Below, one piece after another: positions 8,401-35,182 of a stretch of 64,000 bases of DNA; the stretch's first letter is position 1, and every line of letters starts with the position of its first letter. The notes under the pieces were generated by a model, which was given only the letters and a program-made list of their open reading frames with translations, was not told where the DNA came from and made no database searches. Source of the DNA: Diplolepis rosae (Eukaryota; Arthropoda; Insecta; Hymenoptera; Diplolepididae); NCBI GenBank assembly GCA_030998225.1, contig JAPYXD010000403.1, forward strand, positions 310,001 through 374,000, given 5' to 3'. A program made the translations under genes and the position numbers.

Positions 8401-8688
8401 GATCTGCGCAGACTTAGTAGAACCGAGGTAAAGACCATAACAGAAGTGCTTATTGGTCACGGCAACCTCGCCTACCATAGACACAATATAGGGCTTGCTA
8501 AAAGTCCACTTTGTCGACTATGTGGGGAAGACAATGAAACTTCCACCCATATACTCTGCCACTGTCCAGCAATTGGGGACAAACGACAGTCTCTCGCGGG
8601 CTGCGTCTCCATAGACGTAGCCGTGATTCAGACCAAAAACGTGGCCCAGGTCCTTGCCCTTTGGCACGGGCTGTGGGGTCGCGCATGA
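5471..8688 (+). pseudogene. LINE ORF2: partial endonuclease, reverse transcriptase, RNase H, zinc finger
   Basis: An open frame running from the insertion point to TGA at 8688; the first ATG is 5488 and is an internal Met, not the native start. Domains counted from 5488: the end of an APE-type endonuclease (residues 1-75, with the SLSDH motif near 67); reverse transcriptase (about 300-570) with the catalytic YADD at 528-531; RNase H from WFTDGS at about 791 to about 920, with the later acidic site in SDSRAA and the HRGIKGNETAD block; and a C-terminal CX2CX8HX4C finger (CRLCGEDNETSTHILCHC) near 1009. The N-terminal endonuclease residues and ORF1 are absent, so this copy cannot be autonomous. 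There are no frameshifts or internal stops in 3.2 kb. Confidence 0.9.
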
Positions 8689-17679: not shown

Positions 17680-18527
17680 TGTTACGTCACAAATACGTAA
17701 ATACTTACTTTGATCGAAGATTCCTCGTTTTAAGTTAGGATCGAATGATCCTCGCTTAGGGATGAGGATAAGTCAATGAAAGACACAATGATTATGAAAA
17801 TAATACAAATTGAATTTATTTTACTGGTTAAAATTTCCGGATATACATTCGTTAAGACAATTCTTATATAATGTAGGCACAGGCTGGTTGGTACGTAGGT
17901 GAGAAAGAGACAAAGAATAAAGATAGAGAGAGAGGTTCGGTACCTTTATGATTCGTAAGTTGTGTTGAGGTTTAATCCACACGGCGGTGAGTTGTAAGTA
18001 CTGGATCCCCACAGGTGTATTCCAAGTGTGTGAGAGAGACGGAGTTATAGGCCGCACAGGTATATTCCGTAAAGGGCGGCGATTCAAATTTACGACACTG
18101 TTCGAAGATCTTTACAAGATCTATTCAAGTCTACGATGACTTTTACGACTCCCGAACTTGGATTTTAAATTGTCCCAATCGAATTTTATTAATCTCAAAC
18201 TCAGAGATTTCCGAAGTTAAATTGAAATACCGCACTGGACTATTGTCGCGAGACCGGTTATAAATCCGAAGGAAAATTTAAGTGTCGAACTAGACGAAGA
18301 ATTTACTGACTGCTTGCTCTTGGTGTGGGCCTCTTTTATATTTTTCTATACAAATTGACGGTCAGCGAAAATCGTGACGTAGTCATATCTTCTTAGAGGA
18401 GAAGGGGCCCTATACTGCTCCCTACTTCCCCTACTCCCTATTCCCCTTTATCGATTTTCTCATAGATTTCTAACTCAAACCAGCCTGTGTGTATTATATA
18501 CATTCAAATATGTTGCGGGACGTGACA
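17680..18527 (-). repeat. 3' LTR of the giant element (848 bp)
   Basis: Begins TGTTACGTCAC and ends GGACGTGACA, so TG...CA with near-inverted ends (TGTTACGTC / GACGTGACA, one mismatch). Against 34305-35154 I see one substitution (GTGTCGAAC versus GTATCGAAC) and one GA unit fewer in a GAGA run. On the minus strand it contains TATAAAAG (18340-18333) and AATAAA (17820-17815). The 88-codon frame inside it (17821-18087) is also in the other LTR and is not considered a gene. Confidence 0.95.
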
Positions 18528-18537
18528 CCTCCCCCCT
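18528..18537 (-). other. Polypurine tract for plus-strand DNA synthesis
   Basis: AGGGGGGAGG on the minus strand, immediately upstream of the 3' LTR start TGTCACG. This is the position and composition of a retroviral plus-strand primer. Confidence 0.85.
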
Positions 18538-18540
18538 CAG

Positions 18541-19004
18541 TTCGAGCGCGGGGGCAAGGCTTCCGCGATCGAATCTTCGGAAGAAGAATACATTAGTTTG
18601 TTTTGAAGAAATACATTCAAATACTTTTTTTTCATTTAATTTAATAACAATATGTGAATGATAAATATAACATTCATTTCGACGCTTGTTCTACAATTTG
18701 TATTATCTGCTTTTTGTAACTTGATACAATCCAATATTAACATATTTTTTGTATAAAAATTTATATTATCTTAATATTATAATTTTTTGTTATAAATTAT
18801 TACATAGTTTTTTGAAATAGTTTGAACTTAGCATTAATATAAGTTTACACATGGTTTTTTTTTATATATATATATATCTAACTAAATACATCAATATTAT
18901 TTTTTATACGTGAATTGGGTATCTCATGTTCGTAAATTATAAATAACATGCTGTAATATATAAAATATAATTTTTATAATGTAGTAGATTAGTGAAAATA
19001 TTCT
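18541..19004 (-). other. 3' untranslated region of the giant element
   Basis: AT-rich sequence between the last accessory ORF and the polypurine tract. No further ORF is supported. Confidence 0.6.
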
Positions 19005-19454
19005 TTAAGGGTTATTTTTATATTTTTTATTACGTAAAGGGTTGCGGCAGTTATGAGCTAAATGTCCTCTTTGAAAACACCTTTCACATGAATTAGTCCA
19101 TTTTTGTAAAGCTTCTTTATTGTTTTTATCACTTATATTATAAAATTTAGATTCTGTTATTAAGCATTTTTCTAACTTTTCTTCTAAAAATATATATTTC
19201 GTGGAAAGTGTTTCCAAGACTCTAGCTGCTGCATTTTGTTTTGCTACTTTCTTTTGGGACGCAGGTTCTCCAACACAAGCATACGTTAAATTATTTTTTA
19301 AAATTTCACAAGTTGCCTCGAATGGCGGTAGTTCTTGATGTATTCCAAGAGATTTTACTGTGTATTCTGGTATTGAAAAATCATATTCAATACTTATTTC
19401 ATTAAGTATTTGTACTGCGCTACCCTTTGTCAAATCTCTTTGTTGCATTGCCAT
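19005..19454 (-). CDS. dsRBD-c: dsRNA-binding domain plus CCHC zinc knuckle (149 aa)
   Basis: The last ORF of the element. The first ATG is 19454. It is preceded by a strong 3' splice-site pattern (ATTCTTTTGCAG, AG at 19465-19464), so it is probably made from a spliced mRNA. Residues about 13-84 have the dsRBD pattern: helix (AVQILNEISIEY), strands (PEYTVKS, FEATCEIL, LTYACVGE) and the final helix with KKVAKQNAA (68-76), which matches the RNA-contacting KKxAKxxAA signature. Residues 123-136 (CERCFQRGHLAHNC) form a perfect CX2CX4HX4C knuckle, and the tail is basic. Binding of dsRNA or structured RNA is expected; suppression of RNA silencing is an inference. It looks related to dsRBD-b, which has the same two-domain plan. 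Confidence 0.8.
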   Translation of the reverse strand: MAMQQRDLTKGSAVQILNEISIEYDFSIPEYTVKSLGIHQELPPFEATCEILKNNLTYACVGEPASQKKVAKQNAAARVLETLSTKYIFLEEKLEKCLITESKFYNISDKNNKEALQKWTNSCERCFQRGHLAHNCRNPLRNKKYKNNP

Positions 19455-19562
19455 TGTCCTTATCTGCAAAAGAATTATCTATTTGAGTTGTTTAAGATTT
19501 AATTTGATATAAATGGAAATTAGTTATTATTATTGTTAATAATTATGTATATGGATTATAAA

Positions 19563-19925
19563 TTATTCGTTTTCCGCGTTTGCTAACTCAAAGAGATATT
19601 CAGTGCAAAGAAAACATTGGTCTGCTCTGAAACGTATGAAAAAAATTTGCTCTTCGCAGACAGAACATTTTAATTCGTTAAGATCCGTGGTTACAATGTG
19701 GCGGTTAAGGAAAGGTACAGATATTTCTGATTCAAAAAAGGTAATTTTAAATCTGTAACATTCTTTACATATGAATTTTTGATCTAAAGTATTCTGATAT
19801 ATTTCGTTTTCTGGAGAGTAACAACAAAAATGTTTCATAATTATTTGATCGATATACGGTTGGTAGTACTGTTCGTCGTTTTCTGGATTTTCGGCTTGAA
19901 TGGATTCAAAATCTTGCGGCAACAT
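19563..19925 (-). CDS. Cys-2: small Cys-rich protein, probable zinc binder (120 aa)
   Basis: I do not recognise the family. Three CxxC pairs are visible (CKEC, CSVC and CFLC near residues 53, 87 and 104) plus a CC pair near 34, suggesting two zinc sites. The N-terminus is acidic. The order and spacing of the last half (CxxC, about 16 residues, CxxC-T-E) resemble Cys-1, where CNGC and CKGCTEQF occupy the same places, so the two are likely paralogues from a duplication. A TTGTTATAG acceptor-like site lies just before the ATG. No signal peptide or membrane segment is seen. An intracellular RNA- or protein-binding role is possible but unproven. Confidence 0.65.
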   Translation of the reverse strand: MLPQDFESIQAENPENDEQYYQPYIDQIIMKHFCCYSPENEIYQNTLDQKFICKECYRFKITFFESEISVPFLNRHIVTTDLNELKCSVCEEQIFFIRFRADQCFLCTEYLFELANAENE

Positions 19926-20046
19926 TTTTCTATAACAAATTCGTTATTGAGCTTTAAAATACTAACTAGATCCTAACAGTGTTTTGCTTAAAGAGAATTT
20001 TCTAGACATATTTGAAATTTTATTTATGACTACAATTTATAATATT

Positions 20047-20454
20047 TTATCGAAAAACATTTTCAACTATAACCTCGTTTCCTAATTGAAGTTGCATTTT
20101 ATTTTTTAAGAATTGCTCAGTACAACCTTTACAGTCGATTGCCCTACAGCGTGGCGTTATTAATGCTTCCCTACAACCGTTACAATTCATATTAACGCAT
20201 TGTATTTTACAAACTGAGTGCCATGAGGTACAGAATTCGTATTTATTTTGTTCTGTAATTGGTAATTTTTCGAAGCAAAATTGGCAAAATTTCTTTGTTG
20301 TTTGCTGACTGTAATAAATGAATAAGGTTGACTCTTCTAAGTCGAAACAAAAACTATTTATTAAATGTCCATATGTGATTGAATAATCCTGTGGACATAC
20401 ACCGTCCCCAGGTCCTGGGTGAAACGCGATCGGTTCTGCCGCAGTCGGAATCAT
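20047..20454 (-). CDS. Cys-1: small Cys-rich protein, probable zinc binder (135 aa)
   Basis: An intact ORF between Env2 and Cys-2. It has about 14 Cys arranged as CQFC, C...C, CVNMNCNGC and CRAIDCKGC, plus one His in SWHSVC, consistent with two or three zinc sites. The N-terminus is Pro/Gly-rich (AEPIAFHPGPGDG). It shares with Cys-2 the central CxxC followed by an aromatic/hydrophobic run and the C-terminal CxxCTE signature. I cannot assign a known domain. Its place among dsRBD genes suggests an accessory role in host-defence evasion or RNA handling (inference). Confidence 0.65.
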   Translation of the reverse strand: MIPTAAEPIAFHPGPGDGVCPQDYSITYGHLINSFCFDLEESTLFIYYSQQTTKKFCQFCFEKLPITEQNKYEFCTSWHSVCKIQCVNMNCNGCREALITPRCRAIDCKGCTEQFLKNKMQLQLGNEVIVENVFR

Positions 20455-20786
20455 TATATAAATTTAAAAAGAAAGGGATCTAAATTTACTTAACTATACC
20501 CTTGATTATATGACGTTTATACTTTATGTATTTAATTCGTGCAAAAGTACCCAAAATTTGATTCTAACAGAAGTTCTACATTATTGAAAGGTATTCTATT
20601 TCTCCATTAGAAAAACAATTCTTATATTACAATACCCTTACAAAAACTGTTCTTCTAAAGGTACATTCCCAGTGATCGTGCTGTGGTATAGAAAGAGAGG
20701 GATGGATTGTACCTGTACCAGGAAAATTTGAAAGGATGGAAAATATGGGTCCTTTCCAGTTTATAGATACGTTTGAAAAGAAGTAG

Positions 20787-22568
20787 TTAAAATTTGAATG
20801 ATAGGTCACTTAGAAGAGGTTTTGTTGATAGGCTAAGAGGAGTTTTCTGAACTAGTTTAATTTTATTTATATTTTTATTAGTTTTTTTTGAAATTTTTTG
20901 AATTTTAATTAGTATTATTAATAGAATAATTATTATAAGAAAAGTAACTATAGTATGTGCTATATATATTTTATGTGCACTAGAATTAAAAATAGATGGG
21001 ATAATTTTCTGAATATTAGCATATTTTGTGAGTAGAAAAACATGACTTTCAAAAGTCGATATAAGCATGTCATCTTTTTTATGAAAAAGATGTAACACGT
21101 TTTTTAACAAGTGAGGTTCTGTGATCGACATATTATATAAGAAGGGAGAAATTATTTCAAGAGAAGTGGTCGATTTACTAAGTGGAATTGAGTTATCCAT
21201 TATTTTTGGGTAATTTTTAATATTATAGTATGGAATTGATGAGTCCAAATTACAGTCAGATTCTATTTGTAAAATTCCTATTCCTTGAAGAGTAATAAGG
21301 GTTTTGGAATTTTTGGAGCAAGATAAAAAGATTTGCTTAGGAAGAATAGTTGAATAAAGCCATCCACGGTGTGACAACAGTGGTGTTAAAAAAGGATATT
21401 CATTGAAACTTATGAATGTTTTACATTTATACGGTTGGGATTTTATAAACATTGATGTTTCGCAAATAGGATTATTTTGAGTACTGTATATGGAATGAGG
21501 AGGGTGACAAAAATTTTGAAGTCCATTTTGGTTGCATGAAGCGAGGAAATTTTCATTTGTTGTGAAGTAAGATTCGTTATTTGGAGAAAACGCGATATAA
21601 GAAAATTGAGGTTTTATGAATATAGGTATAATATAATCAGTGTTGAAGTCAAAATGTATAGGGGTTGAATGTGTTTTAAATACTTGAAATTCTTCAGAAG
21701 ATGGAATTGGTATGGTCATAGTAAAAATTAAGTAGTTATTGAAAGTAAAGTATCTTATTTTAGAAAATGGAATGACCATAGAAAAAAGAGACGTTGGAAG
21801 GTGAGGATCTTCTTTGTTGGATTTGAAGTCTAGAAAGGTATCTGGAAGCAGCATGGGGTGCCATAAATTTGTGGCGGCATGGGTCATAGCTTCCGTAAGC
21901 TGTGTTAGGAGTGATAGAAAGGATCGGGATATTTCATGCAAGTCCATCAGCCAATTTGCTGCAAGAATTCTATAAATGTGCAAATTTGGGTAAATTTGTG
22001 ATTTATGCCAGTCTTTGTACATCTTAACGTTATTGAGATTGGATGAAAGATTTTTAATTTGTTCAGAAAATGGATTTGGGAGTAGGAACAAATTTTCTTT
22101 AGGCCAATAAAGAGAAGTTTTTTGTCTTATTTTTGACTGTAGAAGAGCTTCTTGAATTTGGTGTAAAAATGGATCACTATTTTTGGGAATTTTAGTGATG
22201 TTATGAGCTTGTCTGGTTATAAATGAAATTTCTCCCAGAAAATAATTTATACGTTTTTTCATAAATTCAAGCTGAGTGTGGTGATTATATATATTACAGT
22301 TATTTGCAATATTTGTAAGTATACAATGTTCATAAAGTTTGTGAGAAATGTCTACTATTTTATACTTTAAGTTTTCTGGTTGCAAAATGTCAAAATAAGA
22401 GATAAAATTATAATTTTCGGAAAATAGACGTATTTTTGAAATTGGTTCAAAATAAATACCAGATGAGTGATAAAATTGTGAATTGATATACAAGTTTTCT
22501 GCTTTAGAAGTGAAAAACAGAATTAACATCAAGTATACGCCAGAAAGTAGTTGGTATAGGAATTTCAT
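20787..22568 (-). CDS. env: Env2: errantivirus/baculovirus F-type envelope glycoprotein (593 aa)
   Basis: The start is the ATG at 22568 because it opens a signal peptide (MKFLYQLLSGVYLMLILFF) and sits just after a strong 3' splice site (CTTTTTTCTTTTTCAG, AG at 22586-22585). Errantivirus env is known to come from spliced RNA. The mature N-terminus has the family hallmark GIYFEPISKIRLF followed by the F-S-Y-F-D-I segment. The ectodomain has Cys clusters and N-glycosylation sites; residues about 534-556 (VTFLIIIILLIILIKI) are the membrane anchor, followed by a basic cytoplasmic tail. I see no clear RxKR furin site. The frame is intact, in contrast to Env1 and pol. The family mediates membrane fusion in gypsy-type errantiviruses and many baculoviruses. 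No database check was possible. Confidence 0.75.
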   Translation of the reverse strand: MKFLYQLLSGVYLMLILFFTSKAENLYINSQFYHSSGIYFEPISKIRLFSENYNFISYFDILQPENLKYKIVDISHKLYEHCILTNIANNCNIYNHHTQLEFMKKRINYFLGEISFITRQAHNITKIPKNSDPFLHQIQEALLQSKIRQKTSLYWPKENLFLLPNPFSEQIKNLSSNLNNVKMYKDWHKSQIYPNLHIYRILAANWLMDLHEISRSFLSLLTQLTEAMTHAATNLWHPMLLPDTFLDFKSNKEDPHLPTSLFSMVIPFSKIRYFTFNNYLIFTMTIPIPSSEEFQVFKTHSTPIHFDFNTDYIIPIFIKPQFSYIAFSPNNESYFTTNENFLASCNQNGLQNFCHPPHSIYSTQNNPICETSMFIKSQPYKCKTFISFNEYPFLTPLLSHRGWLYSTILPKQIFLSCSKNSKTLITLQGIGILQIESDCNLDSSIPYYNIKNYPKIMDNSIPLSKSTTSLEIISPFLYNMSITEPHLLKNVLHLFHKKDDMLISTFESHVFLLTKYANIQKIIPSIFNSSAHKIYIAHTIVTFLIIIILLIILIKIQKISKKTNKNINKIKLVQKTPLSLSTKPLLSDLSFKF

Positions 22569-22626
22569 TATGCTTCTCGAATGGCTGAAAAAGAAAAAAG
22601 GATTAGTATTGGATACAATTGGATGT

Positions 22627-23199
22627 TTACATATGGTTGGATTTAGGTCTAGAAGTTTTTTGGAAAAAAGGGGAAAATAGATTACTAAATGTTGAGGAGT
22701 TTCGTGGTGGAAGTGGAGGGGGAACTTGTGTTGATTTATCAGCTTTAAAAACATTCCGTCTACGGCACTCTTTTGTAGCATGCATTTGAGTGTTACAATA
22801 TCTACATGAATTTTTCCATGATACTAATTTTGGTCTTGGATCAGTTTGAACACTTTGATTCTTCGTTTTTTTTGTTTCTTTACATTTATTATTATAAAAA
22901 TCCTCATCGCAAAGATCATAAGATCTTATTAATATTTGTAGTAATTTTAAAGCAGCTCTATTTTCGGCTAACTCGCTTGTAGGACCCGCTTGTACAGCAA
23001 AATGATCGTTTGTATTAACTTGAGCAAGAAAAAATGATTTGGTTTTTGAATTTGGATCAGGATAAACGATGTATTGTGGTAACGGTAATCCATATTTTAT
23101 CGTAAAATTTCTCAAAATTTCCACGTGGTTTAAAAGTCCCAGAGAGTCTGTTCTACATATCTTTTTTTTTGTAACTTCGCACATGGGTAGGCTCATCAT
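22627..23199 (-). CDS. dsRBD-b: dsRNA-binding domain, CCHC knuckle and Pro-rich tail (190 aa)
   Basis: Starts at ATG 23199 (a second Met follows directly). Residues 24-92 fit a dsRBD: helix (NHVEILRNFTIKYGLPLPQY), three strands, and a last helix (SELAENRAALKLLQIL) that keeps the AA pair but lacks the KKxAK contact residues, so RNA binding may be weaker. Residues 132-145 (CRYCNTQMHATKEC) are a CX2CX4HX4C knuckle. The tail has PPPLPPR (160-166), an SH3-ligand-like motif. The ORF overlaps the non-coding leader of Env2 but not its coding part. It shares the dsRBD plus knuckle plan with dsRBD-c. Role as a silencing suppressor or nucleic-acid chaperone is inferred. Confidence 0.75.
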   Translation of the reverse strand: MMSLPMCEVTKKKICRTDSLGLLNHVEILRNFTIKYGLPLPQYIVYPDPNSKTKSFFLAQVNTNDHFAVQAGPTSELAENRAALKLLQILIRSYDLCDEDFYNNKCKETKKTKNQSVQTDPRPKLVSWKNSCRYCNTQMHATKECRRRNVFKADKSTQVPPPLPPRNSSTFSNLFSPFFQKTSRPKSNHM

Positions 23200-23249
23200 A
23201 GTAATGCTCCATTATAGATGATTTCCTGAATCAGTATGGAATATTTATA

Positions 23250-23987
23250 TTAGAATTTATTGTACTGATTGGGGGGTCTATATCCGCATTTAAAACATTT
23301 CTTAAAGCTTTTTCCAGAAAAAGGCGATGTAGTAGAAATATTATTTCTTTTTATTTTATAAGGATTTATATTTGTAAAACGATTGTTATTGGATGTATTA
23401 GATTTTGTTATCTGACCACTTGTTGAAGGTCTTGGATCATTTATAGGTGATTCTTGGATTGTAACATGTAAATGTTCTAGTGAGTTTATTAAATTTACTT
23501 CACATTTTTTATCTTTTTGCAAAGGAGAATTTATCATCTTTATAGCTGCGAAATCCTTTGCTGTTTTTATTGTGTTTGCAATTCCTATTCGTTTAATATT
23601 ATTAATAAAACAAATTGCTATGTATGTTGAGTCTTTTGATGAGGTTTTTATTCGTAATACTGTATATTTTGGATACTCAAATTTATTTTGAGTGCAAATT
23701 TCGTTTAATTTTTTGCAATTTTTACTAATAGAATTCGGTTGGACGTTTTGATTTGTTTCCTTTGATTCATTAATTAAGGCATTATATAAATTTTGTGCTA
23801 CCTTTTGCTTTACGTTTTCTTTATCTTTGCCACTATTCATTATTATATAATTGTTATATTGTAAATTAACGTGAAATAGACATTCATTATTATTGGTTTG
23901 TTCAATGAGTATCTCATAAATGAGGGGTGGATCTCCTCTTTGTTGAATAATTTTGTTTAGTAAGGTTGTAAAAGGAACATGCGACAT
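23250..23987 (-). CDS. dsRBD-a: protein with two dsRNA-binding domains (245 aa)
   Basis: Starts at ATG 23987, 12 bp after the Env1 stop. Residues 5-72 form a first dsRBD-like unit (PFTTLLNKIIQQRG helix, PPLIYEILIEQ and ECLFHVNLQ strands, VKQKVAQNLYNALI helix). Residues 91-152 form a second (CKKLNEICTQNKF helix, strands, then KTAKDFAAIKMI, which fits KxAKxxAA). A low-complexity Asn/Ser linker leads to a C-terminal KKCFKCGYRPP with one CxxC, perhaps half a zinc knuckle. Tandem dsRBDs occur in host RNAi co-factors and in some viral silencing suppressors, so a role in binding Dicer substrates is plausible but untested. The frame is intact. Confidence 0.75.
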   Translation of the reverse strand: MSHVPFTTLLNKIIQQRGDPPLIYEILIEQTNNNECLFHVNLQYNNYIIMNSGKDKENVKQKVAQNLYNALINESKETNQNVQPNSISKNCKKLNEICTQNKFEYPKYTVLRIKTSSKDSTYIAICFINNIKRIGIANTIKTAKDFAAIKMINSPLQKDKKCEVNLINSLEHLHVTIQESPINDPRPSTSGQITKSNTSNNNRFTNINPYKIKRNNISTTSPFSGKSFKKCFKCGYRPPNQYNKF

Positions 23988-23998
23988 TCTTTAAGATG

Positions 23999-26029
23999 TT
24001 AGATTCGGATTGAATAATGTGATCTACTAAGTTCTTCTTTTAGTTCAGAGTGAGGATAAAGAGTAGTCTTCGTACTATTATGATTTTTGCCTGAATTGGT
24101 ATTTTCGTTAGGAGATGAACTTTTAGTTTCCTCTATAGAGTTTTGTGGTGCTGAAGCTGTAAGCAGTGGTTGATGGCTCTCAGCGGGAGGTCCAGCAGGT
24201 CGGTTGGTACCCAAGTGTAACAAAAGGTTAGTGACCGAATCCCAGAAGGCGCCTAGTAAATGGAGAGACCATCCAAATAATCTATGTAATCCATAACCAT
24301 GAATAATGGTATCTGCTATTAATTTGATCCCTCTAATTATTATAATTAATCCAATTAGACCTGCACTAGTAGTACCGAAATTTGTAAAAACTGTCCAAAA
24401 TCTACCCCAAGCTGATTCAGCAACTTTATCAATTACTTCTTGGTTAAATAAATTTGTCAATGATATTCCTTGATTAATAGTCGGATGTCCTGTTATTTCT
24501 CTAGCTAAAGAATTTAAAATCATTGGTTTTTCTGCTGGGAACATTATATGATCTCGTAGCTTATCAAGGTCAGATTGAGAATAAATGCCACTTGTTGCTA
24601 AGGATGAAGGATTTGTGTATTTCCAGGTTGCTTTTGTGAGAGGTTTAACTATAGTTGATGCTATGGATTCGACAGGATTTGGAAGTAATTTGTACCAGGT
24701 TTCTCCAAAAAGGTACATTGGTGGAAGGAAAGAATTGCAATTTGTTTGGATACCTGATTTTGTTAATATATGAGTTCGCGGAGAAAGGAAAAAGGATTGA
24801 TTTCCTCTAAATATTGGTAGTTGTAGATAACATTCTTCAGTTTTGCGATATTTTACTTCAACCGGTATACATTTTACGATATGTACTACTTCTCCTGCAA
24901 TTACTGACATATATCCTGGGCCTTTCATTAAATGATATGCAAATTCGTCTGGTGATTGGGTTGCTAAGGTTAATGTATTTCTAAAAACTTGCTGTTCAAG
25001 TATGCATCGTTGAGTAAGAACATCGTGATAAAGTCTATTTACTTCAGTGCGTATGTGTCGTTCTACATATGTAAATTTAGAGTTGACGTATGTGAAAATG
25101 TCCATATTTTGAACTTCTAAATGTTTATTTTCTAAAAATGAATTCCCAGGTCTGGTTTCAAAAATTAATAATTTTGGATGTTCAGTTTGTATTAAAAAGT
25201 AACTGCAAACTGGTTTTCTTGTTTTTTCAGCCAGTACAAAGGTTATATCTTCAGTCGTTAAAGAATACAAGGTTTCAGAAATGTCTGTCGTGTTGTCATA
25301 TGTTTTATTTGCTGGTCCTTCATAAATAATTTCATATTTGTTAAAATTACATACGTCATTAGGTAATGTATCCCAGAATGTTTGTCCATATTCTACGTCT
25401 GTACAGAATGTGTCTGAAAGTGTGCATATTATTCCAGATCCTAATTGAATTTTATTTGAATTTAAATGAATAGTCGCGTAATGTTCTTGTAAAGTTATTT
25501 TGAATATTGCTTGGACTACGACATTATTCCATGTTCCATATGGGTCAGAAAATTGTATACCAGTACAGTCTCCATTAGGTGTTACAGAACCTGCTAAAGT
25601 AACGCTATGAAATGAAGTTTCATTTACTTTTAACTTTGATATCTGAAGAGAAGGGGTTACTAAAAATGTTCCTATTGTGTGCATTTGATTACATTGATCT
25701 CGTGTAACATCATGTATATATTCACTGTGGCCATTTGCAACTATGGAACTGTGAGAATGCATACCACAATGAGAGATGGCGCGTCGAATTTCTATTTTGC
25801 ATTGTATTACTTTTGTATTTGAAAATCCAGTTAATTGTAAAAGTTGTATATAAACTCTTTCAACATGTACTTGAGATCGAGGTAGATCACATTCTCATAC
25901 CTCTAGTAAAGATAATGTCGTAATATTTGATTGATTTGAACCGCAATCGAATCCTATGATGGCGTAGACTGTTGTTATATAGTTGAATTTGCAAATGAGC
26001 AGTGCCAAAAGGAAGCCTCGTAATCCCAT
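23999..26029 (-). pseudogene. Env1: chuvirus-type glycoprotein with one premature stop
   Basis: The ATG at 26029 opens a signal peptide (residues 1-23, MGLRGFLLALLICKF...) and lies 2 bp after a strong 3' splice site (CTCCTTTTTCCAG). The frame is open to 23999 except for a TGA at 25897-25895 (codon 45). A downstream Met at 25762 opens the remaining 587 codons but has no signal peptide. The ectodomain is Cys-rich and glycosylated, with blocks such as HCGMHSHSS, CYLQLPI and ETWYKLLPNP; a membrane segment lies at about residues 555-580 (SAGLIGLIIIIRG), followed by a Ser/Asn-rich tail. These blocks match my recollection of the glycoprotein of chuviruses (negative-strand arthropod RNA viruses) and its captured copies in insect LTR elements. 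It is unrelated to Env2. Family assignment is from pattern memory only. Confidence 0.65.
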
Positions 26030-26172
26030 CTCTGGAAAAAGGAGGTTCCAATTAGCAGCTTGCTTTGTAAAAAAAAAAGAATGAATAAAATTACTTAATA
26101 AACAATTTTGTTGTTACTGTTATATATATTTTTTTTTTTTATGATATTTATTAATTTTGTTATTTTATGTAC

Positions 26173-26454
26173 TTAGTCTATAATATCCAACATGTCAGCT
26201 ATGACAATATGATCTGATAGGCGTAAACTGATAATCAAGTTTTTGTATGCGTCTGGTCCTCTTGTTTTGATTGTTGAAAAAATGTCTTTTATTGTATCTG
26301 GATTGTTTAGGTTTTTGCTCCATGTGGGAATATTACAGTCGTCTTGGTTAAAAATTCCAGTTTGAATTAAGTATGGCCAGAGAGCTACCATGTCGATAAA
26401 ACAGGGAACTATTTCAATGAGATCATCTATGCGTTTGCGATGAATTTGATCCAT
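26173..26454 (-). CDS. CARD-like (death-fold) small protein (93 aa)
   Basis: Starts at ATG 26454 and is intact. The length is that of a single CARD. The pattern fits six amphipathic helices: HRKRIDDLIEIV, CFIDMVALWPYLIQTGIF, the NPDTIKDIFSTIKTRGP block, DAYKNLIISLRLSD and HIVIADMLDII. The TRGPxAY...L...SL......A..L string closely resembles the end of CARDs in insect caspase/Apaf-type proteins. No catalytic or other domain is present, so it could act as a dominant decoy for CARD-CARD assembly (apoptosome or immune signalling); that is inference. It lies between integrase and Env1, where usual gypsy elements have nothing. An alternative is an unrelated helical protein. Confidence 0.55.
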   Translation of the reverse strand: MDQIHRKRIDDLIEIVPCFIDMVALWPYLIQTGIFNQDDCNIPTWSKNLNNPDTIKDIFSTIKTRGPDAYKNLIISLRLSDHIVIADMLDIID

Positions 26455-26673
26455 TATATCTGGAATAATGTGTTATGTCTAAATTTGTTGTATATATTTT
26501 TTATATAAAATATATATTTTTATATAAATTTTTTATATATGTATATTTTTATTTTTTTTTTATTTTTACCATTTATCAACAAAATAAAATTTCTATATTT
26601 TATTTAAATTGTATATGTATACATATTTTTTATAATTAAAGTAAGATATTTTGTTTGTTATTTTTTTATTTAT

Positions 26674-29650
26674 CTACTTTTGTACTTGTACGTGTGAGCG
26701 TTTTAGTCTATTAATGTGAACTACCGTAGGTTTGCCTTTATAGCTTATTTTGACATTCCCTTTTCCTAACACTTCCAATATTTCATAAGGCCCTGTATAA
26801 TGGTTCTCTAGTTTTTTTATTTTACCTCCTTTTAATATAAATACGTTGTCTCCAATTTTTACTTCTAAAGGATTTATTTTTTTATCATAATATATTTTCG
26901 ATTTTTCTTTTGCTGAAATAAGATTCTTTCTTGCTTGTGTTCGCATTTTGTGCAGTTGAGTTACGAAATTAATTAAATAATCATCATACGTTTGTAATTT
27001 TTCTTGTTGTGATAAAGGTTCGCTGGAAGGTTCACGAGCTAATTTACCAAAAACCAATTCATAGGGTGTGCATTTTGTGCCTTCATGTACACTAGTATTA
27101 TACGAGAACATTGCTAGTTCAAGCCAATCATCCCATTCTGAATTTTTTGCAACAAATTGTTTGAGATATTCTCCTAAAACATGATGTGAACGTTCTAATG
27201 ATCCGTTTGATTGAGGGTGAAAAGCTGTGGTACGAAATTGTTTAATTCTAAAACGTTTTGCCAATCTTTTTAATAAATTACTTAAAAAATCTCTGCCTTG
27301 GTCAGTAAGTACTGCTTTTGGTGATCCAAATATGCAAATAAATTTTTTCACAAAAGCATCTGCTATTGTACTAGCTTGGTGATTAGGAAGAGGTATTGCT
27401 AAAGAATATTTGGTAAAATTGTCTTGTATCGTTAGAATATATAGGTTACCGGATTTTGTTTCAGGTAGTGGACCAACAATGTCCATTGATATTTTTTCAA
27501 AAGCAGTAGTGGTTGTGTCTGTGATTACCATAGGATTTTTTGTTTTGACTCTGATTAATTTTTTCAGTTGACATTGTAAACAGCCTTGAATATATTTTTG
27601 AATGTCTACTTTCATATTTTCCCAAAAAAAATTTTGGCGAATTCGGCTATAAGTTTTTGTAACGCCTTTATGGCCTCCTAATGCCGAAGAATGAGCTTCT
27701 TCAATTAAATGAGTTCGTTGTTCCTTTGTTGGATATTGCGTTATTCCATTGCAAACTATAATTTTTGTAGTTGAATTTGAAAAAATTGAATTGAAAATTG
27801 ATTTCACTTCTTCCCAAGGTATATGATTAATTCTGAAAATTTTTGAAATACTAATAGATCGTAATTTAAATTTTTGAGATAATTCTTGTAATGAATGAAT
27901 TGATAATTTTATATTATTTAAAGTTTCAGATAAATTATCTTTAGTTTCTTCTTCAATTGGAAGTGCAAAATGGTAGTAATTTCCTTTTTTAATCTCTTTT
28001 GCTATCCCCTTTTGTAAATTTTTAAATTTTGGTAAAGTTTCACGTTTTTCTAAAGTTTTTGATCCGTTGTCGCGAGGAGTTCCATTTGTTGTAACAAAAT
28101 ATGCATAATTATCTTTTCGCATAGTTAATTGATCGCGACATTCAACTAAATTTTTCTTTGTTATAATTTTTTCTGTTTGAGAGTTTATAGGAGGAGGTTC
28201 TGGGGGTGGACGATTATCATTATCATGATCTTTATCGATTTTTTCAGGATTTATTTGAGATCTTCGGTTTAATCTCAAATTTTCTTCAAAATAAGGCTCT
28301 TCAAATTCTTTTTCCAATTTTTCTTCTTGGTTTTCTTCAAAGTTCTCTTCAAAATTTTCCTCAAGATTGTCTTCAAAATTTTCTTCAAAATTCTGTTCGA
28401 AATTCTTTTCAAAATCGTCTTCAAGATCATCTTCAAAATTCTCTTCCCAATTTTCTTCATAATTTTCTCCATCATTTCCTTCGTGTGAGGTTTCAATGTC
28501 GTTGATTTCATCTTCTGAGGTTGAAAAATAATTCTCACTTTCTTCACTTTCAAATTCATTAATATTTTTTTGCTTCTTGGCATTCTTCTTCTTTTTATTT
28601 TTTGCTTGAGTTTGTTTCAAATAATCTAAATAATCAGGGTCAGAGTCGGAATCTGATTCTACTTTTGTTCGGCTTCCCTTTTGCACATTTATTTCTGGTA
28701 ATTCGTTTTCAAATATTTGTTTTCTTGGCCTACCTCTCTTTCTTTTTGTTTGAGAGGGAATATTTTTCAAATTTGTAAGTAGATTTTTTCTTGGCCTACC
28801 TCGTGATTTTTTCACAAGAGGTTTAGAAGAAAAATTTTCGTCTAATTTTTCTTGAGTTTCATTTTGATTCATATTTTTTCCTTTATCTTGCTCTATTCTC
28901 TTTTGAGCTCTTGTAGTAATAGTTTTCCATGATAAATTTTCGTATTTTTTGGAAAACATTGGACTTAATAAAAATATTGTCATAAAAATAAGTCTTGAAA
29001 CCATATTTTTGAATAAATTTGTGTATTTTAGAATATTCTTACCAATTTCACTAAATGATTCTTCACTAAGGAATTCTTGTAAAAATTCTGGAAATTTTGA
29101 GTTAATATTCAATATTTGGGCTTCTGAAATTTCGCTAAAATGATCTGCGTCGTCTGGTACGATTCCTGGATTCAAGTTTCTTCGTTTTAAAGGTCCTACC
29201 TCATTTTTAGAGTTTTCTTGTTTATTTCTTGTAAAAGTTTTCTTGAAAAACGTTTTTTCTTGAGAAGTCTTAAAAGTATCATTGTCATCAACTTGTAAAT
29301 ATTTTGATTTCTCCTTGTTATCATCAATAGGGTTTCTTGAGAGAGCGTCTGCATTTACATTCATTTTTCCTGCTTTGTAAATTACATCAAAATCATATTC
29401 TGCGAGTTTTAATCTCCAACGTGAAACTCGTGAACACGGGTCTTTAGAATTTTGAAACCAAACTAGAGGTTTGTGATCAGTCACTAAAGTAAATTTTCTT
29501 CCATACAAATAAGGACGAAAATGAGTTACACAAAATATTATAGCAAGAGCTTCTTTTTCATATGTATCCTATTTTTTCTCAGTATCACTTAGACTACGTG
29601 AAGCATATGCTATTGGTTTATCTTTACCTATTTTACCTTGTGATAAAATA
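26674..29650 (-). pseudogene. pol: Pol C-terminal part: RNase H end, AT-hook/acidic insert, integrase
   Basis: The RNase H start (TTDAS near 29675) is readable to a TAG at 29571-29569. The open frame then runs from 29508 (944 codons). Residues 1-60 are the end of RNase H and connection (TDHKPLVWFQ, NADALSRNP). Residues 110-445 are an unusual insert with two AT hooks (SRGRPRK at 235-241, KRGRPRK at 257-263) and a long acidic Glu/Asn repeat (318-412). Residues 590-650 are the integrase zinc finger (H-H, CLQC). The catalytic core has D in SMDIVGP, D in LTDQGRD and E in GSLERSH, with exactly 35 residues between the last two. A GPY/F domain (YTGPYEILEVLGKG) starts near 905. The integrase itself is intact; the polyprotein is broken upstream. 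Confidence 0.85.
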
Positions 29651-29654
29651 CCTC

Positions 29655-30860
29655 CTATTGCAAATCTTGAGGCATCTGTTGTGAGTATAAATGTTGAGAA
29701 AAATCAGGTCGTTGTAAAAGTGGTTCTTCACATAATTTTGCTTTTAACATTTCGAAAGCTGCTTGTTGTTTTTCTGTCCAATTAAAAGGTGTATCTTTTT
29801 TCAGAAGTTGATTTAAAGGACTTGCAATTTTTGAAAATCCATCAATAAATCGTCTATAATATCCTGCTAAGCCTAAAAATTGTTTAAGATTTTTCTGTGT
29901 TTTTGGAACTGGAAAGTTTTTTACAGCTATTATCTTTTTTGGATCTGGACGTACTCCATTTTTATCAATTATATGACCTAAATATCCTACTTCAGGTCGT
30001 AAAAATTCGCATTTGTCTGGTTGTAAGTGAAGATTTGCTTTTCTAAGTCTTTCTGCTAAATTGTTGAATTTAATTTCGTGCTCTTCTAGAGTATTTGCAT
30101 ATATAACTATGTCATCAAGATATACAAAAAGTTCCGTTCCGATTAATCCAGTTAATGTTAAATCCATTAATCTCTGAAATGTGGCTGGTGCAGTTTTTAA
30201 ACCGAAAGGCATTCTATCGAATTCGTAATGACCGTGAGGTGTGGAAAATGCGGTTTTATGAGAGTCTTTTGGGTTCATTTTTATATGGTGAAAACCAGTA
30301 GCTAAATCAAACACTGAAAAATATTTTGCTGATCCTAGAGAATCAAGTATATCGTTTATATTAGGTAAAGGATACGAATCGCCAATTGTTTTTTCATTTA
30401 ATTTACGAAAATCAAGAACCATTCTCCATTTTATTTTTCCTTGAGAATCAGGTTTTTTAGGAACTATCCACACTGGAGTGTTATATGGTGATTGTGAGGG
30501 CTTGATTATTTTATTTTTTAATAATTCATCGACTTGTCTTGTAATTTCTTCCTTGTGAACTGGGGGAAATCTATATTGTCTTGAAAAAATTGGAGCGTCA
30601 TCTACAGTAGGAATTGAATGTTGTAATACATTAGTAGCTTCAAGTGGTTCTCCTGGGATTTGAAATCTGTCTGCATTATTTTTAATTAATTTTTCTACAT
30701 GTTCATATTCATCTTGATTTAAGTGGTCTAGTCGAAGAAGTTTTTTAATACATTCTACTCTGTCTTCGTCTGTTACATTATAAAATTTGCATGAGTTAAT
30801 TAGAGAATTGTCAGTTTTTAAAAAAATCTTGGATATGTAATCGAGGTACATACCCTTCAC
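29655..30860 (-). pseudogene. pol: Pol reverse transcriptase segment
   Basis: A 401-codon open frame with no native start; it is the middle of the polyprotein. It contains PSQSPYNTPVWIVPKK, KWRMVLDFRKLNEKT, the MPFGLKTAPATFQ block and the catalytic YLDD (FVYLDDIVIYA), then the FLGLAGYYRRFI connection, so it is a standard Ty3/gypsy RT. It is separated from the protease part by a +1-type slip in an A/T homopolymer at about 30815-30826, and from RNase H by another indel at about 29680-29700. Both are single-base changes and could be mutations or homopolymer sequencing errors. Confidence 0.9.
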
Positions 30861-31404
30861 TCTTTTCTGTATTTTTTATATTAACATAAAATGTTGTAAC
30901 TGTTCGAGCTGGAATAGTAAATGTATTGGCAGATTTAAAAGGGTAACAGTGGTTCTCAATTTCTAAGCATTTTGAAGTATAGTTTATATTCACACTATTA
31001 TCTTGAAAAAATTCTGATCCTAATACTCCATCTTCTTCTACTGGGACTTCATTGGGAATAATGTTAAATATCGTTGGATAACCAAAAATGTTTATTTTTA
31101 CCTGTCCTAACGTTTAAAGTGGTAAATCATTAATTCCTGTAAGTTTCAATACGTTTTGGCTATTTATGGGTAGTTCAGGGTTGAGAACCTTTTGTTTAAT
31201 TAAATTTCGAGCAGCACCAGTATCAATCATCATGTGTGTTGGATTTTTTAGACCTTCCGTTGATATTATAATTGATGGAATTGAAGTGGACTTTGAAATA
31301 TTTATTGTTGTTGTTGTATGATCGTTAGAAGTGGATGCCAGTGGTTCTCGATTTATGCTTTCCTCAGTGCACCCGTGCTGGGGAGAGCTTTGGAGTTTTC
31401 CTGA
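30811..31404 (-). pseudogene. pro: Pol protease segment with premature stop
   Basis: The frame follows the end of gag in a different register, as expected of gag-pol frameshifting. It contains MMIDTGAARNLI (Asp codon 31224-31222), the DTGA active site of a retroviral aspartic protease, and DGVLGSEF, a likely flap/C-terminal LG motif. A TAA at 31116-31114 interrupts it about 36 codons after the catalytic Asp. The same frame then runs to 30811, overlapping the RT frame. The exact start depends on the frameshift site near the gag stop. Confidence 0.8.
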
Positions 31405-33221
31405 TTAGCTGTTTGTGATTGGTTATTTGGTCGTATCTTGCAGTCTCGTACTAAATGACCGGGTTCTTTACAGTAATTGCAAATTATTTCAGTATAATTT
31501 GAATTTTGTTGAGTGTTATTATTTTGTAAAAATCTATTTTCATATGGTTTATTTCGATTTTGAAACTGTCCTGAGTTAAAGTTTTTATACTGTCCTGGAT
31601 TCAATTGTCTACTAGTATTATTAACATTATTGTTATTATTGTAAAAATTTCTAGGAAAATTATTATTATTGTTGTATCTTTGTTGTAAAAAATTATTATT
31701 GTTTCTATAATTGTTATTTCTATTTTGTAAAAAATGATTGCTGTTATTATTAAAATTATAATTTTTATTTCTCAAAAAATTGTTATTTGGAAAATTATTG
31801 TAATTGTTTCTTGCAAAATTATTATTATTATTACCTCTTTCACCATTGAAATTAATATATCTTCGTTGGTTAGGATTCAACAAATTTTGTTGTTTATTCT
31901 TAAGAACTGCATCTTGAGCTTTACTTAAATGAAAACATTTTTCAGTTGTGTGACCTGATTTTTTACAAATTAAACAAATAGTTTTATTTTCAAGTGCTAC
32001 GTTGAATCGGGTGGTTTTATTACTTTTATTATTATTAGTTGATTCTTCGGTTTTTAAATAATCCGTATTTCTATTTCTTCGCAGTGCAGAAGATGCAGCC
32101 AGTCTTCGTTCTATGTCTATTGTGTCATTAACTACTTCCTTAAATGTGTCCTTTTCTTCTACACGAATTTCTAACTCAGGACGCAAACCTCGTATAAAAC
32201 ATTGAATTACATCTCTTTCTAAATTTTGTTTGAAAGCATTATCTACCTGACCGTCATTATTAAGTCTGTGAGCATCTTCTATTCTATCAGCAATTTCCTT
32301 AATTCTAGCAGCATAGGAAAGGACATTTTCTCTTTCCCACATAAATGTATTACCTAATTCTCCCTGCAATTGATATACGCTTTTCGCAGGGGCATATACT
32401 CTTTTCAATTTTTCTATTAATTCCTCTATTGTTGCATACGTTGACCCAAAAATACATTTTCGTGCCTCACCAGACAATTTACCTCTCAATAGACGTGCAA
32501 GATTTTCTTGGGCAGCAGTTGTCGGCAGCATTGCCTTTGCTTCCATGCAACCCTCAATAAAATGGGACAATGGGAGGTTACTTCCGTCGAACAAAGGGAC
32601 CACCTCTAGCGCGTCGCGTAAGGATACCTGCTGGCTGTTAGGTATGGCTACGGCCATCTCTTCGTTGTTTACTATTACGGGATTATCCTGATTTATGACT
32701 TCTGTATCGCTTTTGTCGTCGTCACTATCGTTGTTACTAATTAGAGAGTCGCGTGCCAATGAGGTTTTCAATTTTTCTTTCAAAGTTCTTTTTTCTATTG
32801 TTATTACCGTTGAGCTTAGCAAGTTAGATCCGTCAAAATAAGATAACTCGTTTGTTAAAGTTTGATCTTGATTACTAGATCCTGTCACAATGCTCAAATC
32901 TGGACAGAAACTTGAATGAAATCCGCTAGTTTTACTAGAATTTTCACTTGATATGGTTTGATCATTAATTAGAGTCTTGTCGAAACGTGAATCGTCTAGC
33001 TGAAGAGTGTTATCTAATTCTTGTTCAGCAGAAAAAGTGTTTGAAATATCCTTGTATTTATTATAATCGACTAAATTTTCTTTGATTTTACCTGATCTTT
33101 TTAGTTTCAAGGAATCTATTTGATTCTGATCGACAATTTTTGCGAGTTGATTGTCTTGTTTTGCTTTACTACGCGTAATAACTTTTTGGGCGGATTCTAC
33201 AGGGGTATTTGAATTTGACAT
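31353..33221 (-). CDS. gag: Gag polyprotein with Asn-rich region and two zinc knuckles (622 aa)
   Basis: Start ATG 33221, intact. The N-terminal 190 residues are Ser/Asp/Asn-rich. Residues about 195-385 are the capsid-like domain (RDALEVVPLFDGSNLPLSHF, then LRGKLSGEARK and LKRVYAPAKSVYQLQGEL), the pattern of gypsy-family Gag. Two CX2CX4HX4C knuckles bind RNA: CLICKKSGHTTEKC (416-429) and CNYCKEPGHLVRDC (about 581-594). Between them lies a strongly Asn-rich, prion-like stretch (about 445-575). Gag assembles the particle and packages RNA. The stop (31355-31353) overlaps the pol frame. Confidence 0.9.
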   Translation of the reverse strand: MSNSNTPVESAQKVITRSKAKQDNQLAKIVDQNQIDSLKLKRSGKIKENLVDYNKYKDISNTFSAEQELDNTLQLDDSRFDKTLINDQTISSENSSKTSGFHSSFCPDLSIVTGSSNQDQTLTNELSYFDGSNLLSSTVITIEKRTLKEKLKTSLARDSLISNNDSDDDKSDTEVINQDNPVIVNNEEMAVAIPNSQQVSLRDALEVVPLFDGSNLPLSHFIEGCMEAKAMLPTTAAQENLARLLRGKLSGEARKCIFGSTYATIEELIEKLKRVYAPAKSVYQLQGELGNTFMWERENVLSYAARIKEIADRIEDAHRLNNDGQVDNAFKQNLERDVIQCFIRGLRPELEIRVEEKDTFKEVVNDTIDIERRLAASSALRRNRNTDYLKTEESTNNNKSNKTTRFNVALENKTICLICKKSGHTTEKCFHLSKAQDAVLKNKQQNLLNPNQRRYINFNGERGNNNNNFARNNYNNFPNNNFLRNKNYNFNNNSNHFLQNRNNNYRNNNNFLQQRYNNNNNFPRNFYNNNNNVNNTSRQLNPGQYKNFNSGQFQNRNKPYENRFLQNNNTQQNSNYTEIICNYCKEPGHLVRDCKIRPNNQSQTANQENSKALPSTGALRKA

Positions 33222-34270
33222 TGAGTCATTATAAATTTACAATTTCTTTTTGTTGAGCGTTATCTTAGATTATTTATTGTTAATTATCGATTGTTTATAA
33301 CAATTTAAAAAAACTACATGTAAAATTTTATTTGTAAATAAAGTGAATTAGTAAAAATATAATTTTAATTTATAAAAATTCAAAAAAAAATTATAATAAT
33401 AATTTCAAAATATAATTTAATTATTTTTATTTGTTTATAACAATAATTAATATTTTTACTTTTTTATTAGGAAATAAGATAATAAAATAAAAATATAATT
33501 CTATAAAATATTCAAATAAATAAATAATCGCTCAATTTTCGTAAAATTATAATGATAAATAATACATTTCTTAAAATTATAACAATATATATATTTTGTA
33601 CCAACCACGTGTGTCTTATAAATTATAATGATCTATTTTATTAATTTATTGAATTATAAATTGTTTTTTAATTGAATAAAATTGTTTATAACAAGGATCA
33701 GATAAGATTCGAGTTATGCACAATTTATTTTTCTCTAGACTGGACAAGTTAGGCTCAAGCTCAGATCCTTGGACAATCTTTGCAAATAAAAATATTCTGT
33801 TCCTTAACAGAGTTAAAATTAAAGTTATAAACAATACAATCACAAGCACTTCGAACTTTGCCCTACCCAATGATCGTAATCAATGGTGACCGTTCAACGT
33901 ACCCAAAAGGGACTTATACTCTCGTGTGCTGTTTTTTTTTGTTTGTTTTAACTTAAATCAAAACTTAGTTAACAAATTAGAATAATTTTTTAAATAAGAT
34001 AAGTTACTTAATCACTTAGGTTAGCCTCAAGGTCAGATCCCTGCGTGATTTTTCAAACTTATTTTATTTTATACAATTTATATAAATTATAAAATTTCAA
34101 AGAAATGATTTGTTTATTAAATCATTAAGGTTAGCCTCAAGGTCAAATCCCTTTGTGATCTAACAAATCTATTTTATTGAAATTTCAAGTTACAAGTTGA
34201 AATAATATTTCATAATCATTTATTTATTCACTAGAAATAATCAATGTGTTAATTTTCAATTGACTTGTGT
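33222..34270 (-). other. 5' leader of the giant element with tandem TCAAGGTCA-containing repeats
   Basis: About 1 kb between primer binding site and gag with no supported ORF (the 74-codon frame 33646-33870 has no recognisable features). Two copies of a roughly 110-bp-spaced repeat contain TTAGCCTCAAGGTCA followed by ATCCCT and a TTTTATTTTAT-like run (TCAAGGTCA at 34027-34035 and 34137-34145), and a degenerate third (GGCTCAAGCTCAGATCC) is near 33750. TCAAGGTCA is the extended half-site of FTZ-F1/ERR-type nuclear receptors; use as such here is inference. Confidence 0.55.
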
Positions 34271-34288
34271 TTCCCGGCCGATGCACCA
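34271..34288 (-). other. Primer binding site, tRNA-Gly type
   Basis: The plus strand reads TTCCCGGCCGATGCACCA, which is the 3' end of an insect-type tRNA-Gly(GCC) with CCA, so the minus-strand RNA can pair 18 nt with that tRNA. It lies 16 nt from the LTR edge (34305), a longer gap than usual. This is not a tRNA gene; the rest of a tRNA is absent. Confidence 0.8.
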
Positions 34289-34439
34289 GAAAAAAAAGGA
34301 AGTATGTTACGTCACAAATACGTAAATACTTACTTTGATCGAAGATTCCTCGTTTTAAGTTAGGATCGAATGATCCTCGCTTAGGGATGAGGATAAGTCA
34401 ATGAAAGACACAATGATTATGAAAATAATACAAATTGAA

Positions 34440-34445
34440 TTTATT
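34440..34445 (-). terminator. LTR polyadenylation signal
   Basis: AATAAA on the minus strand, about 490 bases downstream of the predicted start; the equivalent signal in the 3' LTR (17820-17815) would end the genomic transcript. Confidence 0.5.
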
Positions 34446-34929
34446 TTACTGGTTAAAATTTCCGGATATACATTCGTTAAGACAATTCTTATATAATGTA
34501 GGCACAGGCTGGTTGGTACGTAGGTGAGAAAGAGACAAAGAATAAAGATAGAGAGAGAGAGGTTCGGTACCTTTATGATTCGTAAGTTGTGTTGAGGTTT
34601 AATCCACACGGCGGTGAGTTGTAAGTACTGGATCCCCACAGGTGTATTCCAAGTGTGTGAGAGAGACGGAGTTATAGGCCGCACAGGTATATTCCGTAAA
34701 GGGCGGCGATTCAAATTTACGACACTGTTCGAAGATCTTTACAAGATCTATTCAAGTCTACGATGACTTTTACGACTCCCGAACTTGGATTTTAAATTGT
34801 CCCAATCGAATTTTATTAATCTCAAACTCAGAGATTTCCGAAGTTAAATTGAAATACCGCACTGGACTATTGTCGCGAGACCGGTTATAAATCCGAAGGA
34901 AAATTTAAGTATCGAACTAGACGAAGAAT

Positions 34930-34967
34930 TTACTGACTGCTTGCTCTTGGTGTGGGCCTCTTTTATA
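34930..34967 (-). promoter_or_regulatory. LTR core promoter: TATA box and arthropod initiator
   Basis: TATAAAAG at 34967-34960 is followed, 33 bases downstream of its first T, by the A of TCAGT (34936-34932), the arthropod initiator consensus. The start of transcription is thus predicted near 34934. Confidence 0.65.
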
Positions 34968-35182
34968 TTTTTCTATACAAATTGACGGTCAGCGAAAATC
35001 GTGACGTAGTCATATCTTCTTAGAGGAGAAGGGGCCCTATACTGCTCCCTACTTCCCCTACTCCCTATTCCCCTTTATCGATTTTCTCATAGATTTCTAA
35101 CTCAAACCAGCCTGTGTGTATTATATACATTCAAATATGTTGCGGGACGTGACATATATATATATATATATATTGTATATAT

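Follow-up and report, generated by a model that had tools for sequence, protein, structure and literature searches.

How many genes can an insect retrovirus-like element carry beyond gag and pol while still moving as a single unit, and what would such genes be for? Insect errantiviruses have gag, pol and one env, that is, three open reading frames (ORFs) in 7–9 kb, and the gypsy-type retroviruses of insects serve as a classic example of the conflict between host and transposon. The question is raised by a stretch of 64,000 nucleotides from the hymenopteran Diplolepis rosae (assembly GCA_030998225.1, contig JAPYXD010000403.1, positions 310,001 to 374,000), here called the window. In it, a Ty3/gypsy element of 17,475 bp bounded by long terminal repeats (LTRs) lies at 17680..35154 on the reverse strand, as do all its features given below. 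An original prediction, made from the letters of the sequence alone, had placed the element at these coordinates, correctly, and had counted eight ORFs beyond gag-pol, all of which are present downstream of pol in the window copy: a CARD-like protein, two envelopes (Env1 and Env2), three proteins with double-stranded RNA-binding domains (dsRBDs; dsR1 to dsR3) and two Cys-rich proteins (Cys1 and Cys2). We think, with a probability of about 0.7, that this 17.5-kb element has spread as a unit and is a complex endogenous retrovirus equipped with genes for entry and for blunting RNA silencing.

The accessory block has spread with the element as one unit and is not a one-off insertion. The assembly searched comprises 757.7 Mb in 428 contigs, and the matches scored were 150 of 1169 candidates for CARD, 74 of 2445 for Env2 (75 rows, one of which was a second fragment and was dropped), 102 of 10605 for reverse transcriptase (RT) and 40 of 1728 for the LTR. 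CARD is identical over 98 residues in 60 of the 150 scored matches, the window's included. The 3' block was fetched for 20 copies chosen by their identical CARD, a choice that biases the sample. In fifteen of them each of the eight genes is present in whole or in part, with frequent stops or breaks, so that the search for further copies with the same gene set, proposed in the original prediction, turned out in its favour. Nineteen of the 20 keep more of the block than CARD and a scrap of Env1, to which L019 is reduced; L015 and L025 are without dsR2 and dsR3, L022 is without Cys1, and L017 is without dsR1, possibly because this gene falls outside the fetched stretch. Starting from Env2, a CARD among the CARD matches listed lies 2.5–16 kb upstream on the same strand for 64 of the 74 matches, three of these links being, at 7.4–13.5 kb, farther than usual. 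The CARD matches listed likewise provide a CARD for 36 of the 102 RT matches; four of the remaining 66 were checked, and all four have a second-lineage CARD (86–89%) and Env1. Moreover, uninterrupted pol and Env2 frames occur in copies other than the window's, since the RT match stands in an open frame of 1646–1652 codons without internal stop in 13 of the 102 scored, and Env2 residues 1–593 are matched without internal stop in 36 of the 74. Two single copies differ in their own way. Env2 of L023 has seven stops at 90% identity, most other block genes of this copy being at 92% or above, which may be uneven decay or hypermutation. For L036 (G000 C217), the stretch fetched as the 5' LTR end proved to match L022, on its CARD/Env1 side, at 85% and is perhaps a neighbouring diverged copy.

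The copies also bear the marks of transposition. The predicted 5' end was fetched for nine copies, of which six were readable at both ends, the other three having no 5' LTR in the stretch. All six readable copies are flanked by a 4-bp target-site duplication (TSD), namely AATC, CAAT, GTTA, ATTT, AATA and TTTG, within the range of 4–6 bp given for Ty3/gypsy elements in PMC12440569. Five of these six copies have all eight genes, and the sixth is L015, with the losses given above. Their LTR pairs are 97.9–99.8% identical, which at an insect substitution rate near 3e-9 per site per year means insertion ages between zero and a few million years. The window copy lies in an AT repeat, so its own TSD is ambiguous. 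Among the 40 scored LTR matches, all at least 99% identical, there are seven same-strand pairs 16.6–17.6 kb apart, the window's included, one further pair 20.9 kb apart and two pairs 10.3 kb apart. These data support a real, multi-copy and recently moving retroelement.

The two 10.3-kb pairs, L054 and L055 (G000 C154 and C45), belong to a different form, for which the sequence downstream of integrase (IN) was fetched. Their IN tails have 90.5% and 91.7% nucleotide identity to the complex element, and IN is followed by about 1.5 kb in which no forward ORF exceeds 83 aa and nothing matches the block, and after that by a polypurine tract (PPT) and an LTR 99% identical to that of the complex element. 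At least 40 matches to this 1.5-kb stretch occur in the genome (of 827 candidates 40 were scored, two of these matches being partial), and 5 of the 102 RT matches, at 97–98% identity, lie directly upstream of it. The block-less copies make up a separate family, close to the complex form in RT and, for two copies, sharing its LTR; this sibling would either have lost the block or be the older form. The original prediction had named other copies without the block as evidence that would count against it: this does not hold for the complex form, with the qualification that a block-less sibling family exists and that the block is partly lost in L015, L019, L022, L025 and L031.

If the accessory genes were passengers or proteins at work is best judged from a second lineage, of which four copies were fetched, L029 being the main comparison for the window genes. 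L029 has all eight genes, seven as open ORFs and dsR1 split; L030 has seven, its Env1 interrupted by a stop and its dsR1 falling outside the stretch; in L032, Env1, Env2 and Cys1 are broken or carry stops, and of dsR1 only the beginning is there; and L031 has CARD and Env1 only. In L031 an LTR-like piece is joined directly after Env1, an internal deletion form. The ratio of nonsynonymous to synonymous substitution rates (dN/dS) between the window and L029 is 0.25 for CARD, 0.15 for Env1, 0.21 for dsR3, 0.12 for dsR2, 0.16 for Env2, 0.15 for dsR1 and 0.09 for Cys2 (with dS 2.9, near saturation), and dS of Cys1 is saturated and leaves no usable ratio. The other three second-lineage copies give 0.10–0.25 against the window wherever the ratio is defined. 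Seven of the eight accessory genes are therefore under purifying selection. Within lineage A, that of the window, the ratios are higher (0.11–1.33) over few changes, as expected from copies decaying after insertion.

In both lineages the genes of the block stand in the same order, but their sequences have diverged, and unevenly along the block. Between the window and L029, dS is 0.15–0.27 over CARD, Env1 and dsR3 and at least 0.77 from dsR2 onward, with extremes of 0.15 in Env1 and above 2 in Cys2; nucleotide identity between the lineages is 0.97–1.0 in much of Env1 and goes down to 0.55 at Cys1. RT is 95–100% identical, mostly 97–98%, over the 102 matches, second-lineage copies included. The simplest reading of this mosaic is that recombination has likely taken place between element lineages, a relative having perhaps supplied a new 3' cassette by exchange.

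The eight products follow pol in the order in which we give them here. The CARD-like protein (26173..26454, 93 aa) is indeed present, but the call is weak: CARD (PF00619) is found at E 0.0012 in the window and 0.018 in L029, with 19.2 and 15.5 bits, below the gathering cut-off of 23.9 in both. The Env1 gene (23999..26029) has a signal-peptide-like start at 26029 and a long ORF at 23999–25894, and its product is a chuvirus-type fusion glycoprotein that matches nearly the full Monjiviricetes_fusion profile (PF24664) at 6e-232 in the window and 5e-248 in L029 (772 and 825 bits, cut-off 27). The protein dsR3 (23250..23987, 245 aa) has dsRNA-binding motifs (dsrm, PF00035, 9e-13 in the window and 1e-10 in L029; 49.0 bits, cut-off 23). 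Next comes dsR2 (22627..23199, 190 aa), with a CCHC knuckle and a dsRBD that stays below the same cut-off in both copies (0.0036 in the window, 0.0008 in L029; 18.3 and 20.4 bits). Env2 (20787..22568, 593 aa) is an envelope of baculovirus F type with a C-terminal hydrophobic segment (Baculo_F, 7e-18 in the window and 6e-23 in L029; 65 and 82 bits, cut-off 24). The Cys-rich proteins Cys2 (20047..20454, 135 aa) and Cys1 (19563..19925, 120 aa) are related to each other, and dsR1 (19005..19454, 149 aa) joins a dsRBD (4e-7 and 30.8 bits in the window copy, cut-off 23) to a CCHC knuckle. Thus the two different envelopes, both above cut-off, and the two Cys-rich proteins of the original prediction stand as described, and of its three dsRBD proteins dsR1 and dsR3 are secure while dsR2 is sub-threshold. 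Profile searches gave no convincing family for the Cys-rich ORFs, and the predicted structure of Cys2 was uninformative (pLDDT 40). Searches of PDB sequences gave no useful match for Env2 or dsR3, and the sole match for Env1, a glutathione S-transferase at E 0.01, was dismissed. In viral_contigs, patterns for Env1, dsR3 and the chuvirus glycoprotein (GP) were matched and no relative was confirmed.

The remainder of the element is that of a Ty3/gypsy LTR retroelement (Metaviridae) by descent. The 5' LTR (34305..35154, 850 bp) and the 3' LTR (17680..18527, 848 bp), both TG...CA, differ only in a single mismatch and a 2-nt gap (the raw alignment has 852 columns, the final two being a TA outside the LTR). 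Read from the sequence, the primer binding site (34271..34288, 18 nt), which we take to be complementary to the 3' end of tRNA-Gly, and the PPT GAGGGGGGAGG (18528..18538) are both at their expected places. The gag ORF (31353..33236, 627 aa stop to stop) has a CCHC zinc knuckle by Pfam, and the first part of the protease (PR) ORF (31114..31404), which ends at an in-frame stop in the window copy, overlaps the end of gag by about 50 nt, an arrangement consistent with frameshifting. Then follow the link between PR and RT (30811..31113, out of frame with RT in the window copy), the RT ORF (29655..30875) and a segment at 26674..29568 that holds the C-terminal part of RNase H (RH), cut from the RT ORF by a frameshift in the window copy, a long acidic spacer and IN. 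Pfam finds the order PR-RT-RH-IN on pol, with a weak, sub-threshold PR (E 0.015), a split RH, and the H2C2 and core domains of IN. Against solved structures, RT is closest to Ty3 (3.8e-70 and 2.9e-69), then to 8r0s (6e-51), and the best retroviral RT comes far below (7.8e-33, 8wus), which sets the element apart from Retroviridae; IN matches prototype foamy virus (3.3e-29) and Ty3 integrase (4.9e-29) about equally. The spacer between RH and IN holds two AT-hook-like GRPRK motifs at 28720..28800. Of the 120 relatives listed, 110 could be scored with a rough pattern: the spacer exceeds 250 aa in 95 of these, and an AT-hook core occurs in only 9.

The structure from LTR through primer binding site, gag and pol to PPT and LTR, which had been described as complete, has indeed all its parts in order, but the window copy is degraded in pol and Env1. 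Its PR is interrupted by an in-frame stop, the reading frame is shifted between PR and RT and again inside RH, and Env1 meets an early stop near its N terminus. PR-RT-RH is open for 786–807 codons in five of eight other copies (2.4 kb sampled), and the N-terminal stretch of Env1 is free of stops in 22 of 24 others. The lesions of the window copy are not general to the family.

How eight ORFs downstream of pol might be expressed is suggested by the sequence just upstream of their start codons, most of which follow 3'-splice-like sites. In lineage A an acceptor score of at least 7 is found at 5 of 8 starts against 28 of 128 other ATGs of the block (p=0.004), and in lineage B at all 7 starts scored, dsR1 being left out, against 24 of 124 (p=4e-5), with a score that is simple and was devised after the upstream sequences had been viewed. 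In each lineage the strongest acceptor-like sites are those upstream of Env2 and Env1. The scores are poor for dsR3 and Cys2 in lineage A. On the whole, these sites suggest that the accessory genes are read from spliced mRNAs.

The life cycle that we propose would begin with a genomic RNA started in the 5' LTR, from which gag-pol would be translated, the accessory proteins being made from spliced mRNAs. Particles might bud with one or both fusion proteins, leave one cell type and enter the germline through Env1 and/or Env2, so that the two predicted fusion glycoproteins would carry the element between cells; in flies the cell type that such particles leave is the ovarian soma, according to PMC13172572. 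The dsRBD proteins may bind dsRNA of the element or silencing intermediates and shield its RNA from processing of the Dicer type or by the Piwi-interacting RNA (piRNA) pathway, and the CARD-like protein might cap a CARD assembly; together they would blunt RNA silencing and death-domain signalling. The putative role of the accessory genes as host-defence countermeasures is predicted from the type of domain, the CARD call being weak. Silencing suppression and infectivity are likewise predictions.

Other explanations have to be weighed against this one. The strongest rival to the silencing mechanism is that the dsRBD-CCHC proteins serve in packaging or RNA transport. More generally, the accessory proteins could be structural or regulatory factors of replication, for RNA packaging, transport of ribonucleoproteins or transactivation, with the dsRBD-CCHC proteins chaperoning genomic RNA and the Cys-rich pair being transcription or zinc-binding regulators. 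Complex retroviruses have such factors, and the joining of a dsRBD to a Gag-like CCHC knuckle in both dsR1 and dsR2, the kinship of Cys1 and Cys2 and the purifying selection on seven genes would all suit them. However, three dsRBD ORFs seem beyond the needs of packaging, a CARD-like protein has no obvious role in it, and Cys1, Cys2 and Env2 have the highest dN of the block, as host-facing proteins do, although their dS is high too. We give this explanation a substantial chance, still clearly on the minority side. It is also conceivable, though in our opinion unlikely, that only one fusion protein works, Env2 coming from an errantivirus-like ancestor with Env1 as a passenger, or the reverse. 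Chuvirus-type GP and IN apparently co-occur in relatives, so that Env1 may be the native envelope, and Env2 diverges far more than Env1 between lineages; both, however, are under purifying selection at nearly the same dN/dS between the window and L029 (0.15–0.16).

Two further explanations concern the history of the family. The frameshifts and stops in the window copy and in many fetched copies could mean that the element is an old inert family, selected in the past and now decaying without infectious or silencing-suppressing activity. LTR pairs of up to 99.8%, the 60 of 150 identical CARD ORFs, the 13 of 102 long open pol frames and the 36 of 74 stop-free Env2 matches point instead to recent spread, and make an inert family quite improbable. 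Finally, the 3' block could be separate virus or host DNA inserted in one copy, or could have spread mainly by segmental duplication, and a sibling family with close RT and no block is what such an insertion might leave. Against it stand the block in 19 of 20 CARD-selected copies, the CARD linked to 64 of 74 Env2 matches, clean 4-bp TSDs of differing sequence in six of six copies, and divergent block versions in the same order in two lineages. That a virus had by chance inserted in a single copy, which the original prediction had itself raised as the finding that would undo it, is rejected on the copy survey, the TSDs and the Env2–CARD linkage, and what is left of this explanation is extremely improbable.

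Where, then, does an element that spread as a unit with genes predicted to serve entry and to blunt silencing belong? Protein searches were based on the best 120 of 427 Env1 matches and the best 120 of 660 IN matches. IN matches a protein of Leptopilina heterotoma at 86% identity across 75% of the query region, and the named relatives of Env1 among the matches listed are Hymenoptera, which would fit a hymenopteran, perhaps cynipoid, host. Comparing contigs of up to about 22 kb, eight equal-sized contigs are common to the Env1 and IN matches listed, where about 0.35 would be expected in a rough uniform model; equal size is a proxy for a shared contig and not proof of it. In Athalia rosae the Env1 match LOC125501329 and the IN match LOC125501328 have consecutive LOC numbers on equal-sized contigs, and for these nine pairs together with the window, the distances of GP and IN are correlated (Mantel r 0.78, p 0.0001). 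This suggests that the chuvirus-type GP is a long-standing envelope of a hymenopteran Gypsy lineage and is probably not peculiar to the window element. The novelty would thus lie in the second envelope and in the dsRBD, CARD and Cys genes. A word-limited search with dsR3 found 35 relatives, all in 'ena' contigs, one of which (P0155) also has an Env1 domain, so that the accessory block looks lineage-specific.

Among known systems, the errantiviruses (gypsy, ZAM, 17.6 and 297; Metaviridae) share with the element the LTR-gag-pol-env layout, the Ty3/gypsy-type RT and IN, the Baculo_F envelope and a short TSD, and five NCBI-named relatives among the 120 IN matches listed bear the labels 17.6 or 297. 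Unlike them, the window element has 17.5 kb in place of three ORFs in 7–9 kb, six additional ORFs and an extra envelope of a different class, so the errantivirus affinity would hold in part, for pol and Baculo_F envelope but not for size and gene number. Anakin elements of mosquitoes are BEL/Pao elements with a chuvirus-derived glycoprotein (PMC7642597) and resemble the window element in using such a protein as envelope; they differ in that the window pol is Ty3-type, a distinction drawn from the comparison with solved RT structures, and in that the window element has seven further ORFs. Identity with Anakin is rejected on the type of pol. Dezordi and co-workers (2023) reported endogenous viral elements of Jingchuvirales GP beside Gypsy in Hymenoptera with no clear evidence of capture by Gypsy (PMC10084718). 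That association is like the present one, but the GP of the window family lies inside LTR-bounded, TSD-flanked elements in many copies: the present family shows a Gypsy element with a chuvirus-type glycoprotein between its LTRs. Figure legends of a 2026 paper (PMC13172572) present gypsy elements with type III fusion glycoproteins, and its available text describes no dual-envelope or dsRBD/CARD element; the same portions of PMC10084718 and PMC13172572 describe no dsRBD, CARD or second envelope. The original prediction knew of no described element with this gene set, and searches of the open-licence literature, a scope outside which most subscription papers and bioRxiv fall, found none.

Complex retroviruses, that is, lentiviruses and spumaviruses, have accessory genes beyond gag-pol-env, and the window element is like them in having such genes, likely spliced and likely host-facing; it differs in its RT, nearest to Ty3, and we know of no homologous accessory genes in complex retroviruses. 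The element would therefore work like a complex retrovirus while descending from Ty3/gypsy. Tentatively, and at a little less than even odds, it could be the first complex insect retrovirus, a Ty3/gypsy element whose two fusion classes and suppressors of silencing and death signalling would have led to many copies, to recombination of the 3' cassette and to a stripped sibling living as its satellite.

Other mobile elements lie elsewhere in the window. Transposase-like ORFs (61418-62973), which by eye we take to be hAT-like, lie between two inverted arms (539 and 497 nt, 99–100% complementary) at 60032-64000; the whole is apparently a DNA transposon of recent origin whose terminal repeats are unusually long. 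An open 1082-aa ORF at 5440-8688 presumably, again by eye, resembles a non-LTR reverse transcriptase with RNase H, and an integrase fragment of another LTR element was seen by eye at 3081-3845.

The family studied here brings two classes of fusion protein into one retroelement. In addition, it holds dsRNA-binding proteins under purifying selection, with which retrotransposon-coded suppression of RNA silencing becomes directly testable.

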